Positions 6,604-29,650 of a stretch of DNA of 64,000 bases are shown piece after piece; the first letter of the stretch is position 1; the number at the start of each line of letters is the position of its first letter. The DNA comes from Phycisphaerales bacterium (GTDB taxonomy: Bacteria; Planctomycetota; Phycisphaerae; Phycisphaerales; UBA1924): the NCBI GenBank assembly GCA_020831775.1, contig JAFIFZ010000036.1, positions 62,001-126,000 on the forward strand, read 5' to 3'. The translations under genes and the position numbers were made by a program. Below the pieces are notes generated by a model, which was not told the DNA's origin, ran no database searches, and worked only from the letters and a program-made list of their open reading frames with translations.

Positions 6604-8591
6604 CCTCCCTCCCCGCCGGCGCGCCCGGGCGAACCTACATCGGCGAGGCGGCGCCCGAGCTGTCGGTGCTGCAGCGATACAGCCCGCTGCGGCTCTTTTT
6701 CGGCCCCTCGTTCGCCAAAGAGATGCGCGTCACCGGGCGCAAGGGCTCGACCTACAGCTACCGCTTCAGCTACACCATGCTGCTGCTCCTGGTGATCGGG
6801 ATGGCTTTTTTCGGCGCTTCGGCGTCGATCTCTGGGGGCGGCTCCGCCGCGGCGCTCCAGCAATACCAGACGATCGCCCCGATCACCGCGACCACGATCG
6901 TTTGGATCCAATTCGTCGTGCTGGCGCTGCTCGCGCCGTCGCTGACGGCCGGAGCCGTCGCCGACGAGAAGCTCTCGCGGACCCTGCCCTCGCTGATGAC
7001 CACGCCCCTGCCGGCTTCGGAGATCATCCTCGGCAAGTTCTCGGCGAGGCTGGTGCTCCTGCTGATCCTGGCCGCGATCCCCACACCGATCCTGCTCAGC
7101 GTGCGCGTGTTCGGCGGCCTTCCCGCCGCGTCCATCGCATACAGCCTCGGGCTCAGTCTCTCGGTCTTCGTGCTCGGCCTGGCGTGCGGGACGCTGATGT
7201 CGGTGCGGTCTCAGCGTTCGTCTGCGGCTGCGGCGGGCGGGCTCGGCCTCTTTGTGTCGATCGTCATGCTCCCGTTGCTGGCGATCTTCGCCTTGGAGCG
7301 GGCCGACAGGCTCTCGCCCGAGATGGGCGAACGGCTCTGGCTCGTCTTCAGCCCGGCGACGCTGGGCATGGTCTCACAGAGTGCGTTCGAGAGCGGCGAG
7401 TCGCCGCGGATCGTCCCTGCGATCGTGTACAACCTTGGCTTCTCCGCCGTCGCCCTCGGCCTGGCGGTCTTCTCCTGCCGTCGCGTGCTCAACCGCTACG
7501 CCGCATTCGATGCGCCCGGCCCGGTGAAGAACAAGAAACAGAACGAGCCCTCCGACAGAGCCGAGGGCAAGGGGCGTTGGCCGTGGCGGCGTGCTCGCGA
7601 CACCCGCGCGGAGGGAGCGCCGACCGGTCCGGAAGCACCCGAGTCCGACTCCTCGCCGGGCGCCGCGCCCTCGGCGACTGCAGCCAAGAAACCGGGCGGC
7701 CTGCTCTTCGCCTCAACCAGCCGCGAGGTCTGGGACAACCCGATCCTCTGGCGCGAGCTCCGTCAGCCGGCGTTCACGGGCCGCGTCAAGTTCGGCGTGG
7801 TCGTCGGTGCGGCGGTGCTCTTCTGGCTCTGGTTCGCGTTCGCCGGGGGGAGCACCGGAGACAGCGTCACCGCCGTCCACGCGATGGTGGCGTTTACCGG
7901 GCTGATGATCTTCACGGTGCAGGTCGCTTCGCGGACCGCCGGCGCCTTCGCCAAAGAGCGTGAGGCCGGCACGCTCGACACACTGCTGACCGCGCCCGTC
8001 CGCCTCCGGCGGATCGTCCTGGCCAAGACGGCCGGCCCCTTCCGCCAGCTCTGGTTCGTGCCCGCGTTCGTGCTCTTCCACTTCGGCGTGGTCGGCGTGT
8101 TCTCCGGCACCGCCGGCCCGCTCTTCGTGGTGCACCTCGCGTTGATCTTCGCGGGCACGGCCATCTTCATCGGCGGTGTCGGTGCTCTCTTCGGGCTGGT
8201 CCTCAAACGGGCGCTGATCGCGAGCACGCTGGCTCAGGGCGCGGGGCTGGTGCTCTGGCTGATCCTGCCCGCCATGTACGCGCTGCTGGTCGCACTGTTC
8301 TACAGGGTCCAGTATCCTCCCGACTACATGGAGCACATCATGGACGCGATGCTGATCATCAATCCATTCGTGCTGCTGTCCGAGGCTTTCGAAGCCGGCG
8401 TCATCCATGTCTTGCAATACCGGTTTTCCACTCAAACCGCGACCTACGGCGTCTACTTCGATCAGGAACTCGGCCCGGTGGTGTTCACGCTGATCCTGGT
8501 CGGGGGGGTCGTGCTCGCGACGCTCGCCGCGGCGGCGGCGGTCCTTGTTGCCTGCAAGGGTTTCAACCGCTTCGTCGGCCGCCCCTCCTGA
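6600..8591 (+). CDS. Large ABC-2-type permease with two membrane halves
   Basis: The 663-residue integral membrane protein has two ABC-2-like halves. The first (about 55-310) includes the typical coupling region AGAVADEKLSRTLPSLMTTPL. The second (about 385-655) repeats it as FAKEREAGTLDTLLTAPVR. A Pro/Glu/Ser-rich cytosolic linker (about 305-370) separates the halves, so the gene looks like an internal duplication or fusion giving a complete permease from one chain. GTG at 6600 overlaps the TGA of the ATPase gene. The substrate cannot be read from sequence; a role in export or in supporting cell-surface machinery is inferred from family context. Confidence 0.9.
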   Translation: MTSLPAGAPGRTYIGEAAPELSVLQRYSPLRLFFGPSFAKEMRVTGRKGSTYSYRFSYTMLLLLVIGMAFFGASASISGGGSAAALQQYQTIAPITATTIVWIQFVVLALLAPSLTAGAVADEKLSRTLPSLMTTPLPASEIILGKFSARLVLLLILAAIPTPILLSVRVFGGLPAASIAYSLGLSLSVFVLGLACGTLMSVRSQRSSAAAAGGLGLFVSIVMLPLLAIFALERADRLSPEMGERLWLVFSPATLGMVSQSAFESGESPRIVPAIVYNLGFSAVALGLAVFSCRRVLNRYAAFDAPGPVKNKKQNEPSDRAEGKGRWPWRRARDTRAEGAPTGPEAPESDSSPGAAPSATAAKKPGGLLFASTSREVWDNPILWRELRQPAFTGRVKFGVVVGAAVLFWLWFAFAGGSTGDSVTAVHAMVAFTGLMIFTVQVASRTAGAFAKEREAGTLDTLLTAPVRLRRIVLAKTAGPFRQLWFVPAFVLFHFGVVGVFSGTAGPLFVVHLALIFAGTAIFIGGVGALFGLVLKRALIASTLAQGAGLVLWLILPAMYALLVALFYRVQYPPDYMEHIMDAMLIINPFVLLSEAFEAGVIHVLQYRFSTQTATYGVYFDQELGPVVFTLILVGGVVLATLAAAAAVLVACKGFNRFVGRPS

Positions 8592-16749: not shown

Positions 16750-17766
16750 ATGAACAGCCGTACAACACTCTCAATCCTCAGCATGACGATGATGGTCATG
16801 CTCGCTCCGTGCCCGACTGTTCTGGCCGAGTCGGGATTGGGCAATGCCAATGAGCGTCTTGGCGGTCGACAGATTGACGAACCAAATGCCGCGGAGCTCT
16901 ACCGCGCCGCGTGGGTGCGTCACGCTAAGTTGATGAGCGCGTTCAACGAAGAGTTGCAACGGACCGATCTCTCCAAGGCCGATGCCGCGTGGGTTCCGGA
17001 GAGGGAGACCCTCGCGGTGCTCCGCGCCTGCCGCCCGCTGGTGGAGGATCTGATCCGTGCGTCGCAAGCGGGCGAGGCTGACTGGGTCGTCGATGGGGAC
17101 GAGTTCTTCGCTCCGCTCACGCACCACGGCCGGTTGCGGTCGAGCGTTCGGTTGCTTGCGGCTGACGCAAGAGTTCGGATGGGTACTGGTGATCACGCCG
17201 GGGCGGCCGAGCGCATCGCCGCGATGCTCCGCATGTCCGGTCAGCTCCGCGGCGACCGACTCATATCGGCCCTGCTCGCCATGGGGGTCTTCGATGTCGG
17301 CTCGCAGATGGCCGAGCATTTCATCAATGAGGGTTCTCCCGATCCCGAGCACCTGCGGCCGATCCGCGAGGCGGTCGATGCGATCCCCGAGGAAGACCCG
17401 TTCGCGATGCTCGATGCGATCAAAGGCGAGCGTCGGCGATCCACGGCTCTCATACGGAACTGGGCAGAAGCGGGCGCACCGCCAGAGAAAGCGCCCCCGG
17501 TGCTGGATGGCCCTCTGCGCTTCGCCGAGGCCGTGGTCGTCATGGCTTGGCTCGAACGCCTCGACGCGTACTACGAGGAGCTCATCGAGGCGTGGCGATC
17601 CGACGATCCTCCCGCCAGAATCGCCGCGCTCGAACAGGCGGCCGACGCAGGAGAGTACGGCATGCTCACAAAGATCATGGCCCCTGCGATGGGAGTGGCG
17701 TACAAGGCGGACCAACGCACCAGAACCCGCATCGCCGAGATCCGGGCGTTGCTTGAAAGTCAGTAA
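16750..17766 (+). CDS. Array protein G: secreted helical protein, sister of F
   Basis: The 338-residue paralogue of F has a Met-rich signal peptide (MNSRTTLSILSMTMMVML, cleavage after VLA). It shares NAAELYRAAWVRHAKLM, VLRACRPLVEDLI, HAGAAERIAAMLRMSGQLR and PEEDPFAMLDAIKGERRR with F. The pair arose by a duplication separate from the A/D one. No strong ribosome site is seen. The stop TAA overlaps the ATG of H (TAATG). Function unknown. Confidence 0.78.
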   Translation: MNSRTTLSILSMTMMVMLAPCPTVLAESGLGNANERLGGRQIDEPNAAELYRAAWVRHAKLMSAFNEELQRTDLSKADAAWVPERETLAVLRACRPLVEDLIRASQAGEADWVVDGDEFFAPLTHHGRLRSSVRLLAADARVRMGTGDHAGAAERIAAMLRMSGQLRGDRLISALLAMGVFDVGSQMAEHFINEGSPDPEHLRPIREAVDAIPEEDPFAMLDAIKGERRRSTALIRNWAEAGAPPEKAPPVLDGPLRFAEAVVVMAWLERLDAYYEELIEAWRSDDPPARIAALEQAADAGEYGMLTKIMAPAMGVAYKADQRTRTRIAEIRALLESQ

Positions 17767-18779
17767 TGAATGACAACTCAACGGTATGTGGGTGTCTTAT
17801 GAAGCATGTTGTTGCGTCAATGTCGGTGGCGATGGTTCTGATGGCGGTCTCTCCCGCTTTTGCAGACGAGAATCCGTACCAAGAACTGTGGAAACAGTAC
17901 AGCGAGCCCATGGCCACTGTCCTCGAAGCCTTTCCGCCGTCCGGACCATTCATGGACCTGTCCTGGCGACCGGAAGACCCGGCGCTGCTGGAGGCGATCG
18001 AAACACCGGGGATGCTCGATGCGATCGTCGCGGCGTCGAAGTCTAATCGATCTGGCTGGTTGGAAGGGGACGGTCCAGAGAGCTACGGATCGATATTGGT
18101 TGGCGTTGCAAGCGCGCTCGTCACAGACAATCGTTCGGCGATGTTGGCGGGCGACTCGGATCGATCTGTCGAACGAGTGTTGGCGTTGTGGAGATGCGCC
18201 ATGCAGCATCGTGCGGAACGATCGCTCGATGAAGGGGCGCTCTGCGTGTGGCTTGTTTGGGCTGCGGCGAATGAGACTCGGGCGCTTGCTGAAGGTGTCG
18301 AACTAAGCGATCAACAGATCGGCCGAATCTTGGAGGCCTTGAAATGGACCGAAAAGACCGATCCATTCGGCTACCGCGCTGCGCTCGAACACGAACCAAA
18401 GGCAATGATTGCGAGGCTGCACGACGAGCGGGATGCAGCGATCGCGGCGCAGAAAGAAGTCCTTGAACAGAGAAGAGCCGTCGTTGAACAGAATGGGTTC
18501 ATTGATAAGCGCGATGAGCAAGAAGCGCGGCGAGATGTTGACAGTCGGATCGCCGCCCTCTCTCGGTGGATCGCCGATTCCTATCGCGACGCTGAGCGGC
18601 TGTGGGATCATCCTGACGCAAAGGCAAAGCTCGACGAGCTCGATCTGGAAATTGAGCATTCGGAGTTCTTTCGCCTCATCATGCTCCCGAGCTATGAAGC
18701 GAGTTGGCAGTTCGAGCAAAGCGGCCTGAAGCACGCCGAACTCGCACGCACCGCGCTCACGGAGGCCCGGACGGATTGA
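17766..18779 (+). CDS. Array protein H: diverged last member of the secreted array
   Basis: The 337-residue protein carries a signal peptide (hydrophobic core VASMSVAMVLMAVSPAFA). Only the outline of the family remains: NPYQELWKQY near the mature N-terminus, SWRPEDPALLEAI, and ILEALKWTEKTDPFGYRAALEHEP in place of AIDALP. It has a charged stretch (about 215-260, many Glu/Gln/Arg) that may form a coiled coil. Base use is more A/T-rich than in its neighbours. ATG 17766 overlaps the stop of G; ATG 17799 would give a more compact signal peptide and is a real alternative. The stop overlaps the sigma-factor start. Confidence 0.72.
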   Translation: MNDNSTVCGCLMKHVVASMSVAMVLMAVSPAFADENPYQELWKQYSEPMATVLEAFPPSGPFMDLSWRPEDPALLEAIETPGMLDAIVAASKSNRSGWLEGDGPESYGSILVGVASALVTDNRSAMLAGDSDRSVERVLALWRCAMQHRAERSLDEGALCVWLVWAAANETRALAEGVELSDQQIGRILEALKWTEKTDPFGYRAALEHEPKAMIARLHDERDAAIAAQKEVLEQRRAVVEQNGFIDKRDEQEARRDVDSRIAALSRWIADSYRDAERLWDHPDAKAKLDELDLEIEHSEFFRLIMLPSYEASWQFEQSGLKHAELARTALTEARTD

Positions 18780-25176: not shown

Positions 25177-27165
25177 ATGTCCGCTCTCAACAAAGACAAC
25201 GACCACAAGGTCTACCAGCTCGCCGCCAATCCGGGCGAAGAGCGTCCGACCCGCCGCTTCGCCGTCCCGCTGCAAGGGGCGCACAACCCCGGCTCGGGCG
25301 ACGCGACCACGCCGGGCAGCTTCGCCCGCCGCGCCGACATCGGCGGGCCGCTGAGCTTCTCCTCGCCCGACTCGGCGGGCATGCCCGAGCCCTCGCCCTA
25401 CACCGCCTGGGACTTTCTGCCAGAAGGCTGGGCCTGCGCCGCGTTCGAGACCGACGAGCCGCTGGAGCGTGAGGATGTCACGCTCTCGACGCTGCCGGAC
25501 ATCCGTCAGGTCGTCTTCACCGACGCACGCGGCGTGACGCGCCGTGTGACCTACCCCAGGGGCTTCGAGCCGGTGACGCAGCTCGAGCACGCGCGGCTCG
25601 GCATCGTCACCGACCAGATGCGCCGCGTCGCCGAGCGTGAGGGCCACCTGACACCCGAGCAGGTCCGCGACGAGGTCGCCGCGGGCCGCATGGTCATCCC
25701 CGCCAACAAGACCCACCTCACCTACAAGCTCGACCCGATGGCGATCGGCCGGGCAAGCAAGACCAAGGTCAACGCCAACATGGGCGCCTCGCCCGTCTCC
25801 AGCGGCACAGACGAAGAGCTCGAAAAGCTCCGCTGGGCGGAGAAGTGGGGGGCCGACACGGTCATGGACCTCTCGACCGGGGGCGACCTCGACGCCTGCC
25901 GCGAGGCGATCATCCGGAACTCGACCGTCCCCATCGGCACGGTTCCGATCTACTCGATGATCATCGGGCGCAGGCTCGAAGACCTCGACCGCGCCGCGGT
26001 GCTGGAAATGATCGAGCACCAGGCCCGCCAGGGTGTTGATTACTTCACCATCCACGCCGGCCTGCGCAAAGGCCACCTGAAATTCGTCAAGGACCGCCTG
26101 ATCGGCATCGTCTCTCGCGGCGGCAGCCTGCTGGCCAAGTGGATGCTGGTGCACAACCAGGAAAACCTGATGTACCAGCTCTGGGACGACATCTGCCGCG
26201 TCATGCGCGAGCACGATGTCACCTTCTCCATCGGCGACGGCCTCCGCCCCGGCGGCCTCGCCGACGCCACCGACGACGCACAGCTCGCCGAGCTCGAAGC
26301 CATCGGCGAGCTCACCGAACGCGCCTGGCGCCACGGCGTGCAGGTGATGGTCGAGGGGCCGGGCCATGTCCCCCTCGACCAGATCGAGTTCAACATGAAG
26401 CTCCAGCGCCGCCTCTGCCACGGCGCCCCGTTCTATGTGCTCGGCCCGCTCGTGACCGACATCTTCCCGGGCTACGACCACATCACAAGCTGCATCGGCG
26501 CGACCAACGCCGCGTGGCACGGCGCCAGCATGCTCTGCTATGTCACGCCCAAGGAGCACCTGGGTTTGCCCAAGAAGGACGATGTCAAGCAGGGGTGCAT
26601 CGCCTACAAAATCGCGGCCCACGCCGCCGATGTCGCCCTGGGCATCCCCAACTCGCGCGACCGCGACGACGACCTGACCCGCGCCCGCGCCGCCCTGAAC
26701 TGGGAGAAGCACTTCGAGCTGAGCTTCGACCCCGACACCGCCCGCGCCTATCACGACGAAGACCTCGATGTCGACACCGATTTCTGCGCCATGTGCGGGC
26801 ACGACTGGTGCTCGGTCCGCATCAGCAAGGAGATCCAGGAGTTCGCATCGGGCAAGGCCGACGGCTTCGAGCGCGTCGGCACAGGCGGCAAGGCCGGCGC
26901 CCCCGTCCGCTCGGCCGCGCTGACCGAAGAGCAACAGAAAATCCTCGAACAACGCGGCTACCTCTCGCCCGAGGAGATCCACAAGCTCGCCAGCAAGGTC
27001 GCCAAGAGCGTCGAAGCCAAGGAAGATGGCAAGGCGGCCTGCCACTCGGACTATGTCGACCCCGAAGAGGCCAAGCGCATGCAGGAGGCCAAGGCGGGCG
27101 AGAAGATCGTGCCGCTGGACACCAGGCCGGCGCTGGGGATCTCGAAGGAGGATCGGTTGATCTGA
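25177..27165 (+). CDS. thiC: Phosphomethylpyrimidine synthase ThiC
   Basis: ThiC is a radical-SAM enzyme converting aminoimidazole ribotide to HMP phosphate, the pyrimidine half of thiamine. The 662 residues match long-form bacterial ThiC. The N-terminal domain leads into the barrel with [43 protein letters not shown] and [11 protein letters not shown]. Near the C-terminus CAMCGHDWC supplies the CX2CX4C cysteines of the 4Fe-4S cluster. The ATG at 25177 has GGAGG 11 bases upstream inside the riboswitch hairpin, so the gene is thiamine-repressed. No other thi gene is adjacent. Confidence 0.98.
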
Positions 27166-27182
27166 GGGGGAGGCCAGCGCTG

Positions 27183-27188
27183 TATACT
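27183..27188 (+). promoter_or_regulatory. Putative -10 box (TATACT) upstream of the DUF433 gene
   Basis: TATACT lies 25 bases before the ATG at 27214, with GGAGG at 27201-27205 eight bases before the ATG. Unlike most small genes here, this one has a normal leader. A TTGATC 20 bases further up is a poor -35 candidate. Confidence 0.4.
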
Positions 27189-27213
27189 GCCCCCGGCACC
27201 GGAGGACTGTGAC

Positions 27214-27435
27214 ATGGCCGAGACATGGCGTGAACGCATCGTGTGTGATCCCGACATCAGGCACGGCGAGCCGTGCATCCGCGGCACGCGAATCGCCGTG
27301 GCGACGATCGTCGGCTCACTCGCCGACCTGACGATGGACGAGCTTCTCGCGGAGTTTCCGCAAATCTCCCGCGATGATGTGCGGGCGGCGCTGTTGTTCG
27401 CCGCCGAGGCGTCGCATTTGACGCTGGTGGCATGA
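27214..27435 (+). CDS. DUF433-family small protein (antitoxin-like)
   Basis: The 73-residue protein is full length for DUF433: CDPDIRHGEPCIRGTRIAVATIVGSLADLTMDELLAEFPQIS is the diagnostic stretch, with a small helix-turn-helix-like fold. Such genes usually sit directly before a DUF5615 PIN-like toxin gene. Here the expected partner is absent: 71 bases later comes an ATPase gene. It may be an orphan antitoxin, a remnant of a lost pair, or a regulator of the next two genes. Confidence 0.85.
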   Translation: MAETWRERIVCDPDIRHGEPCIRGTRIAVATIVGSLADLTMDELLAEFPQISRDDVRAALLFAAEASHLTLVA

Positions 27436-27506
27436 GCTCGCAAGCCCGATACCAGGCGCATGCATTGGATTGGCTTTCCCGGTGCAAATTAGATCGGAGT
27501 GTTTGA

Positions 27507-28718
27507 ATGGGTCCTCGAATCAAAGAGCTCCAACTAAAGAATTATAAGAGCATTGAACATTGCAACATCAAGTTCTCCCCGCTCACACTGTTGGTCGGCC
27601 GAAACGGTGTTGGGAAGAGCAACATCTTGGACGCCCTCAGATTTACCAGTGAGGCATTGCAATCAACTCTGGAGTACGCCATTCGAGAGCGGGGCGGCAT
27701 CGATCAAGTGCGACGAAAGTCGCTTGGCGGTCGGCCAACCAACCCCGCAATCGCAATGAGGCTCGCACTGCCAGACGGAGAAGCGGAGTATGCGTTCAAG
27801 ATAGCCGCTGTTCAGGGAGGGGGGTTTAGGGTCGCGAGAGAGCGATGCCATTTGCTCTCTGGTGGAGTGGAAATTGTGTATCATACACGGAACGGGGAAG
27901 TCATTGAGTGGCGGAACATTCAGGCGCCAATGCCTGCATCGAGCAATGACCGCCTTTTGCTGGTGGCCGCGAGCGGTATTCCGCAGTTCCGCTTGGTTTA
28001 CGATATCCTCACTAGGATGACATTCCACAACCTGAATCCCGAGATTATGAAGTACCCGCAGCGGCCAGAGCCGGGCGAGCGACTGGCGCACGATGGCCAC
28101 AACATTGCCAGTGTGATCAAACATCTTCAGACGGTGTCTCCAGACAGGCTCGATCGTGTAATCCAGTATCTTAATGCAATTGGTGTGCCAATATCGAAGA
28201 TATCGCACAAACATGCTGGGGCACTCGAGACCGTAGAAGTGTCACAGGCAGTCCATGTACCCACAGGCGAGCGGAACTCAAACTTTGACGCTATCGCGCT
28301 GTCAGATGGTACGGTTCGAGCGATCGGTATTTTGGTTTCGCTGGTTTCGGGGCAGGGCGCAAAGGGCGGTCCGACACTGATCGGGATCGAAGAGCCCGAG
28401 ACAGCGTTGCACCCGGCGGCCGTCGGCGCACTGGTTGATGCGCTTTTGGAAGGCGCCGAACAGACGCAGATCCTGCTTACATGCCACAGCCCAGATATGC
28501 TAGATCACCCGGATATCGATCCCTCTATGATCCGTGTTGTTCTGCTGGAAACAGGCAGGACAGTCGTTGGGCCCTTGAGCGCCGCAAAAGCCGAGATGAT
28601 GAAGAGCCACCTTGTGACTGCAGGTGAGTTGCTTCGGCTTGACCAGCTTACACCTGATCCTCGAGAAATTGAACGAGCTGGGGACGCGAGGGGAACGCTC
28701 TTTGAGGCGATCCAATGA
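27507..28718 (+). CDS. AAA/ABC-type ATPase (RecF/OLD-like, AAA_21 type), candidate defence ATPase
   Basis: The 403-residue protein has an SMC/ABC-type ATPase domain. Walker A GRNGVGKSN lies at residues 32-40, the signature-like ALSDGTVRAIGIL near 267, Walker B TLIGIEEPETALHP near 292 and the switch His in LTCHSPDML near 328. The insert between the halves carries MTFHNLNPEIMKYP. The architecture matches the ATPases of two-gene anti-phage modules. GGAG precedes the ATG by about eight bases. The gene is visibly richer in A/T and in codons such as AAT, TAT and ATA than its neighbours, suggesting horizontal acquisition. Its stop overlaps the DUF4276 gene (ATGA). Confidence 0.88.
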   Translation: MGPRIKELQLKNYKSIEHCNIKFSPLTLLVGRNGVGKSNILDALRFTSEALQSTLEYAIRERGGIDQVRRKSLGGRPTNPAIAMRLALPDGEAEYAFKIAAVQGGGFRVARERCHLLSGGVEIVYHTRNGEVIEWRNIQAPMPASSNDRLLLVAASGIPQFRLVYDILTRMTFHNLNPEIMKYPQRPEPGERLAHDGHNIASVIKHLQTVSPDRLDRVIQYLNAIGVPISKISHKHAGALETVEVSQAVHVPTGERNSNFDAIALSDGTVRAIGILVSLVSGQGAKGGPTLIGIEEPETALHPAAVGALVDALLEGAEQTQILLTCHSPDMLDHPDIDPSMIRVVLLETGRTVVGPLSAAKAEMMKSHLVTAGELLRLDQLTPDPREIERAGDARGTLFEAIQ

Positions 28719-29290
28719 CCGGTGTCGTGATCGCACCGATTGTGGAAGGGCACGGAGATGTACAGGCGATCCGTATCCTGATTCAGCGATTGTTTCCCGA
28801 TGTCGGGGTTGCTCGCCCGATTCGAGCGTCCCGGGCCAAGATCCTCAGCGACGAGCAGTTGTCTAGCTACGCTCAGCTGTGCGTGTCAAATGTGCGAGAG
28901 TGCGGCTCCGCTGGCGGGATTATGCTGTTGTTCGATTCTGATGATGACTGCGCGGTGACTACCGCGCATAGCCGTCGAGCGAAGTTGAGAGATGCGTCAG
29001 GGTTGCCCGCGGAGTGCGTGCTTGCGGTGAGGGAGTTTGAGTCATGGCTGGTCGCAGGTGATGGGCAGTATCGCTATGACGGTGAAATTGAGCTAAAGAG
29101 GAATCCAAAGGGTGTTCTGAAGGAGTGGTACGGGCGATATCGTGAGACGGTGGATCAGCCCGGTCTCACCGCGAAGATCGATCTGGAACAGGTGAGATTG
29201 CGTTCTCGCTCGTTCCGCGCATTTGACAGTGCTTTGGTTCGATTGATGAAGAGCATTCACGAGCAGTCGTCAGTAGGCGGTGAGGGCTAA
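28715..29290 (+). CDS. DUF4276-family Toprim-like protein, partner of the upstream ATPase
   Basis: The 191-residue protein opens with APIVEGHGDVQAIRIL, the Toprim-like glutamate motif of DUF4276. It continues with LLFDSDDDCAV, an acidic cluster placed like the Toprim DxD, and AVREFESWLVAGD, a conserved family motif. Toprim domains in this setting usually act as nucleases switched on by the ATPase. Four-base overlap with the ATPase gene and shared A/T-rich composition argue that the two moved as one cassette. A nuclease activity is inferred. Confidence 0.82.
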   Translation: MTGVVIAPIVEGHGDVQAIRILIQRLFPDVGVARPIRASRAKILSDEQLSSYAQLCVSNVRECGSAGGIMLLFDSDDDCAVTTAHSRRAKLRDASGLPAECVLAVREFESWLVAGDGQYRYDGEIELKRNPKGVLKEWYGRYRETVDQPGLTAKIDLEQVRLRSRSFRAFDSALVRLMKSIHEQSSVGGEG

Positions 29291-29311
29291 GCACGACGCA
29301 ACCGCCAGGAC

Positions 29312-29650
29312 TCAAACCGCCGACCGCGCCGGCATGTCCGACACAACTTTCAGGCCCACAATGCCCGCGACGATCATCGCGATGAACAGCAGCCGCAACG
29401 CCGTCACGGGTTCTTTATAGATCGCGATGCCCAGGATCGCAACCCCGACACTCCCGATCCCCGTCCAGACCGCGTACGCCGTGCCGATCGGGATCTGCAG
29501 CATCGCGCGGCTGAGCAGGTAGAAGCTCACGACCATCAGCGCCAGCGTGATGAGGCTCGGGCGCAGCCTCGTCCACCCCTCTGTCGACTTCATCGAGACC
29601 GCCCACGCCACCTCGAACACGCCCGCGACAAACAGCATCAACCACGCCAT
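29312..29650 (-). CDS. Small multidrug resistance family exporter, Gdx/SugE-like
   Basis: The 112-residue protein has four membrane helices. The membrane-embedded glutamate is in FVAGVFEVAWAVSMK (Glu13), and the G-TAYAVWTGIGSVG motif in helix 3 favours the guanidinium-exporter (Gdx/SugE) subgroup over EmrE. Such proteins act as dual-topology dimers exchanging guanidinium for protons. It follows der on the same strand. No guanidine riboswitch could be recognised upstream; that space contains the palindrome at 29674. Confidence 0.88.
   Translation of the reverse strand: MAWLMLFVAGVFEVAWAVSMKSTEGWTRLRPSLITLALMVVSFYLLSRAMLQIPIGTAYAVWTGIGSVGVAILGIAIYKEPVTALRLLFIAMIVAGIVGLKVVSDMPARSAV

Follow-up and report, generated by a model that had tools for sequence, protein, structure and literature searches.

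The window, by which we mean the whole analysed stretch of 64,000 nucleotides, harbors two overlapping genes on the forward strand at 27507-28718 and 28715-29290, as described in an earlier note on this DNA. The pair is flanked by thiC upstream and by an SMR-family gene on the opposite strand downstream. The note had located it between thiC and a gdx-like gene, without mention of a 73-amino acid DUF433 gene (27214-27435, 65% GC) that sits between thiC and the pair. The main features of the locus, named according to the assignments given below, are:

27136-27165, plus strand: 3′ end of thiC, where HEC-01 lands recurrently in this order (adjacent in 5 of its 13 HEC-01 genomes)
27171-29315, no strand: segment replaced in the same-genus sister species G002, including the DUF433 gene (blastn of the sister locus L071 against the window)
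27507-28718, plus strand: HEC-01A, OLD/ABC-type ATPase of 403 amino acids (PADLOC PDLC04178, Pfam AAA_15/AAA_21, AlphaFold2 pLDDT 92.3)
28715-28718, plus strand: ATGA stop/start overlap of HEC-01A and HEC-01B, 4 bp (57 of 71 homologous pairs likewise)
28715-29290, plus strand: HEC-01B, DUF4276 Toprim-like protein of 191 amino acids, putative nuclease effector (PADLOC PDLC04196, Pfam PF14103, AlphaFold2 pLDDT 94.2)

The ATGA overlap would imply coupled translation of the two proteins. Scans around the cassette revealed no promoter, terminator, tRNA or tandem repeat.

The first gene encodes an ATPase in which the full Walker A and Walker B motifs noticed earlier are indeed present, with motif residues that are invariant in 55 homologues. 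The H-loop histidine, H327, is also invariant in this set.

27597-27620, plus strand: Walker A, GRNGVGKS, residues 31-38 (G31, N33, G36, K37 and S38 invariant in 55 homologues)
28299-28319, plus strand: ABC signature, LSDGTVR, residues 265-271 (S266, D267, G268, T269 and R271 invariant)
28377-28400, plus strand: Walker B with catalytic glutamate, LIGIEEPE, residues 291-298 (E295, E296, P297 and E298 invariant)

The predicted structure of HEC-01A matches the heads of SMC and Rad50 as well as PtuA of Septu and retron systems (Z about 18-21), and its sequence profile matches OLD (6p74), PtuA and GajA, and weakly AriA. Among Pfam families, the ATPase is recognized by AAA_15 (4e-22) and AAA_21 (1e-21), and the second protein by DUF4276 at 1e-9, above the cut-off. 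Comparison with the PADLOC collection identified both proteins over nearly their full length. The ATPase matches the HEC-01A model with an E-value of 6.3e-132 (residues 3-391, profile positions 7-390 of 399) and the second protein the HEC-01B model with 5.9e-39 (residues 1-179, profile positions 1-193 of 197), the latter gene being adjacent to and co-directional with the former, with the 4-bp overlap, which is the arrangement of a HEC-01 pair. The AriA model of PARIS scores 3.2e-23 with the same ATPase and is thus not the closest family; the AbiLi model scores 2e-20. NCBIfam MAD3 gives 8.5e-27, but its 94.4 bits fall far short of the 420-bit cut-off and do not qualify the protein as a MADS component. 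The name HEC stands for 'Hma-embedded candidate' (PMC12111858, which cites Payne et al. 2024, bioRxiv 10.1101/2024.01.29.577857). HEC-04, HEC-05 and HEC-06 are among the HEC systems reported to be active, HEC-04 being a fusion of an ABC ATPase and a Toprim domain with reported protection against T4 and T5 (PMC12111858).

Judged from these matches, the window pair belongs to HEC-01, a candidate defence system that is already catalogued, and is not a new system; as described below, it was acquired horizontally. An orphan ATPase-DUF4276 pair thereby acquires a place in a named system. Of the earlier interpretation, the two-gene module of an ATPase and a Toprim-like protein is supported, and the structural reading was good. 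An effector family new to defence is not supported: HEC-01A/B is an existing PADLOC entry, and DUF4276 displays the catalytic residue pattern of OLD-type Toprim nucleases. No paper naming DUF4276 was found in a literature search of a limited collection.

This residue pattern becomes apparent when HEC-01B is compared with the class 2 OLD protein of Burkholderia pseudomallei (BpOLD), in which a two-metal site is formed by E400, E404, D455-x-D457 and T506-x-E508 and the catalytic lysine is K562 (PMC6755086). The putative counterparts in HEC-01B and their conservation in 62 homologues are:

28745-28759, plus strand: E11 and D15, cf. BpOLD E400 and E404 (E11 in 59/62, D or E at position 15 in 61/62)
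28934-28942, plus strand: DxD motif D74-S-D76, cf. BpOLD D455/D457 (D74 in 62/62, D76 in 57/62, the others having E or N)
29033-29041, plus strand: E107-x-E109, cf. BpOLD T506/E508 of metal B (E107 in 59/62, E109 in 62/62)
29108-29110, plus strand: K132, cf. the catalytic lysine K562 of BpOLD (62/62)

The residues occur in the same order and with the same local spacings (i+4, i+2, i+2) as in BpOLD, the correspondence being one of sequence, without superposition of side chains. In a Foldseek search with the HEC-01B model, class 2 OLD Toprim domains occupied ranks 2-5. Structural comparison (VIA) gave Z 8.3-8.4 over 153-160 residues for these domains (at Z 8.4, 160 residues with an rmsd of 4.6), and Z 6.9 over 138 residues with an rmsd of 3.8 for AriB of PARIS (8ux9_A). 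Lumazine synthase and arylmalonate decarboxylase, which have unrelated Rossmann-like folds, score within one Z unit of the OLD domains, and the fold alone is not decisive. Because the OLD Z values are not separated from those of such unrelated folds, the fold search is supportive and not proof, and the residue pattern weighs more than the fold search for the Toprim assignment. DUF4276 is likely an OLD-type Toprim nuclease, and its confident model fits these domains best, if not decisively.

Sequence searches with the DUF4276 profile gave no match to solved structures at E-values up to 1, and the HEC-01B protein showed no match to the AriB models of PADLOC or to DUF4435 of Pfam up to E 0.1. There was also no Pfam match to RloB in HEC-01B; when the DUF4276 profile was compared by hhalign with RloB proteins of the class, the similarity was weak (probability 33%), the DxD and E-x-W motifs being the points of alignment. 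The putative active site of E11, D74/D76, E107/E109 and K132 is concrete and mutable, which makes HEC-01 directly testable.

With respect to architecture, HEC-01 can be compared with several known systems. Like PARIS, which has been termed 'class 4 OLD', it would have an OLD-type ATPase (AriA in PARIS) and a Toprim protein (AriB, a nuclease of the two-metal Toprim type; PMC12409363) encoded by separate genes. The two systems differ in that HEC-01B has no match to the AriB models and in that the AriA score of the ATPase is far below its HEC-01A score. With class 2 OLD proteins and GajA, HEC-01B shares the pattern E-x3-E/D, DxD, x-x-E and K, and OLD Toprim domains are among its top-ranked fold matches. 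In Gabija, however, ATPase and Toprim domain are on one chain and are accompanied by the UvrD-like helicase GajB, whereas HEC-01 consists of two chains, and no helicase gene lies next to the window pair, the adjoining genes being DUF433/thiC and SMR. The split two-gene layout of HEC-01 resembles PARIS and its residue pattern resembles class 2 OLD. HEC-04/IbfA stems from the same discovery context and has the same domain pair, but is a single fused protein and a separate PADLOC family. The ATPases of MADS (MAD3) and AbiL (AbiLi) are related to HEC-01A, but Pfam assigns the HEC-01 partner to DUF4276 without a hit to RloB, and no other MADS genes occur at the window locus.

The two genes form a conserved unit. 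The ATPase alignment was used to scan 84,980 species genomes. From the 341 relatives recovered, the best 80 were retained; together with one record from a phage collection, 81 loci were examined. A DUF4276 gene follows directly downstream in 71 of these, and in 57 of the 71 with the same 4-bp overlap. Five more DUF4276 neighbours are part of an open reading frame with an earlier called start and two were recognized by eye at contig ends, which brings the total to about 78 of the 81 loci; the earlier note had proposed looking for the same pair in other genomes. The exceptions are one decayed remnant, in the Thiodictyon MAG L114, where the ATPase is kept and the remnant of DUF4276 lies after position 8576, and two loci without DUF4276 (L147 and L151). 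The order ATPase-effector is fixed among HEC-01 loci. HEC-01A and HEC-01B diverge together (r = 0.93, 2211 comparisons), and in 99.6% of the comparisons DUF4276 is the faster-evolving partner; for the locus pairs L080/L066 and L080/L082 the NG86 dN is about 0.4-0.46 for DUF4276 and 0.12-0.16 for the ATPase.

Several observations support horizontal acquisition of the pair. The 47 called genes of the window average 67.5% GC (sd 2.6) with a GC3 of 0.85 (sd 0.09), whereas HEC-01A has 55.2% GC with a GC3 of 0.59 and HEC-01B 56.9% with 0.63. The drop in GC starts directly 3′ of the stop codon of the DUF433 gene. Composition and codon use thus differ from the neighbouring genes as had been claimed, although the description of the pair as A/T-rich is valid relative to the host and not in absolute terms. 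The DNA of the sister species G002 matches the window at 92% identity in thiC, up to 27170, and in the SMR-Der region, from 29316, with nothing matching in between (blastn); the slot is occupied there by a gene for a NERD-domain (nuclease-related) protein and a membrane-protein gene (588-2167 of L071). Because these genes are unrelated to the pair, the slot between thiC and SMR is variable within the genus. Within the order, just 13 of the 400 genomes have the pair; elsewhere in the class, another 17 have it. The transfer proposed in the earlier note is thereby supported, and inheritance by all relatives with ordinary composition, which it had named as the contrary outcome, is not what the 13 of 400 genomes and the low GC3 indicate.

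No duplicate of the thiC end was seen at the right boundary of the segment. The copies of a 17-nt inverted repeat, at 27260 and 29673, do not enclose the replaced segment; they are GC-rich and lie inside the DUF433 gene and past the SMR gene. Elsewhere in the window, another GC-poor open reading frame (17766-18779, 58% GC, 337 amino acids) has no Pfam match.

Relatives of the pair are found in the vicinity of defence genes. Around 15 HEC-01 loci, 92 PADLOC families were matched (E up to 1e-15) among 87 neighbouring open reading frames, versus 7 among 105 in 15 matched control stretches of the same contigs, where families overlap and the figures are not gene counts. Known defence neighbours could be attributed at 4 of the 15 loci. 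In a Rubrivivax MAG (L154, 5393-14837) the genes are arranged in one direction as hmaA, HEC-01A, HEC-01B and hmaB; a type III methyltransferase gene lies directly upstream of the pair in a Cellvibrionales (L092) and a Hydrogenophaga genome (L104); and Wadjet JetA/JetC genes follow directly downstream in Rhizobacter (L122). The remaining neighbours are mostly metabolic genes. The defence association of relatives that had been anticipated is therefore real but partial. While the Rubrivivax copy is embedded between hmaA and hmaB, the window copy, whose two proteins match the full-length HEC-01 models in the same gene order, lies between thiC/DUF433 and the SMR gene, and no known defence genes, Hma included, were noted beside it.

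We consider it probable (about 0.7) that the HEC-01 pair is a defence system in which an ATPase gates a two-metal Toprim nuclease that stops infection. By analogy to OLD, Gabija and PARIS, HEC-01A would most likely sense infection and keep HEC-01B inactive in a complex. A phage trigger would then lead to ATP binding or hydrolysis by HEC-01A, by which HEC-01B may be released or activated. The nuclease would cleave nucleic acid by two-metal catalysis, and this cleavage would abort the infection; the target could be tRNA, following PARIS, or DNA, following OLD and Gabija. RNase M5 and AriB illustrate that such Toprim sites can cut RNA.

An SMC/RecF-like ATPase with a Toprim nuclease could also serve in plasmid exclusion or genome maintenance instead of phage defence, comparable to Wadjet JetD or RecF-RecR. 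The HEC-01A model fits both SMC/Rad50 heads and PtuA, one relative adjoins Wadjet, which is an anti-plasmid system, and the archaeal OLD-family ATPase Cran1 is reported to have a cell-cycle role rather than a defensive one (PMC12796447). A housekeeping function is, however, difficult to reconcile with the sparse distribution in the order, the replacement in the sister species and the relative between Hma genes, and we regard this explanation as unlikely.

The pair might alternatively be a toxin-antitoxin or addiction module, with DUF4276 as a toxic nuclease held in check by the ATPase and persistence explaining its spread. Two overlapping genes of which one encodes a putative toxic nuclease would fit such a role, and PDB entries of PARIS AriA are titled 'AriA antitoxin'. 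Upstream of the window pair lies the DUF433 gene, and relatives of DUF433 are often antitoxins. Yet no DUF433 gene is present near any other HEC-01 locus, and the fixed order of ATPase and effector and the defence genes among the neighbours also argue against addiction, which we consider quite improbable. The boundary between an addiction module and abortive infection is not sharp.

Whatever its role, HEC-01 is repeatedly located at the 3′ end of thiC, in 5 of the 13 genomes of the order that have the pair as opposed to none of the 17 in the class outside the order. The loci are the window, L080, L081, L082 and L241, and both orientations are represented. On the same strand, HEC-01A follows thiC at 341 nt in the window (with DUF433 in between), at 21 nt in G032/L080, at 18 nt in G353/L082 and, in another family, at 57 nt in G059/L081; nothing besides the adjacency to thiC is common to these four loci. 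In G465 the pair meets thiC tail to tail with overlapping stop codons, and its ATPase represents a deeply separate HEC-01 lineage. Since the thiC proteins of the four same-strand genomes are scattered over the thiC tree, the G465 lineage is separate, and the strongly supported branches of the HEC-01A tree do not allow fewer than three changes of the state 'beside thiC', repeated arrival is better supported than one ancestral insertion. HEC-01 has settled at this site at least twice in the order and probably more often, although L080 and L082, with similar junctions, may share one event.

Vertical inheritance beside thiC with loss in most relatives, the odd composition reflecting relaxed selection, could account for the five thiC locations and the similar L080 and L082 junctions, but is very improbable in view of the opposite orientation and different deep lineage of G465, the at least three label changes, the fact that no bootstrap tree of HEC-01A groups the five copies, the low GC3, the intervening DUF433 gene, and genus g63, in which one of the two species compared has the pair beside thiC (L082) and the other away from it (L066).

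Turning to the repeated arrival of HEC-01, no recombinase, tRNA or direct repeat that accounts for the site was found. The chances are about even that HEC-01 modules land preferentially, and in either orientation, at the thiC 3′ end in this order, and that two deep lineages arrived there independently through an unrecognised form of targeting or selection. If so, a two-gene defence module without recombinase would be placed precisely where a core metabolic gene ends, and the spacing of about 20 nt behind thiC in two genomes could permit co-transcription. In 20 relatives without the pair at this position, the contents of the thiC 3′ flank differ in every genome and no gene family recurs from one genome to another. 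These flanks contain 10 PADLOC families in 92 open reading frames, mostly uncharacterised PDC or IetA families, and the flank is not clearly a general defence hotspot. A limited literature search found no prior description of the thiC 3′ end as a HEC-01 site. The recurrent site offers a place to look for additional defence modules in Planctomycetota.

Among plasmids, 30% matches were found in three Streptomyces records, and in viral contigs the matches were confined to short P-loop stretches at 31-42%. The phage records include one unannotated 23-kb scaffold from human faeces, labelled 'Bacteriophage sp.' (L161, MT835995.1, 21150-22301), with a HEC-01 pair at its end; the scaffold may simply be bacterial, or the copy may reside on a prophage, and a single scaffold is too weak as evidence for phage-borne HEC-01. 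The DUF433 gene was considered as a part of the system and discarded, being absent from all other HEC-01 loci. In the window it is an orphan without an adjacent toxin gene, and a 71% identical copy is present in another genome (G011, L236).
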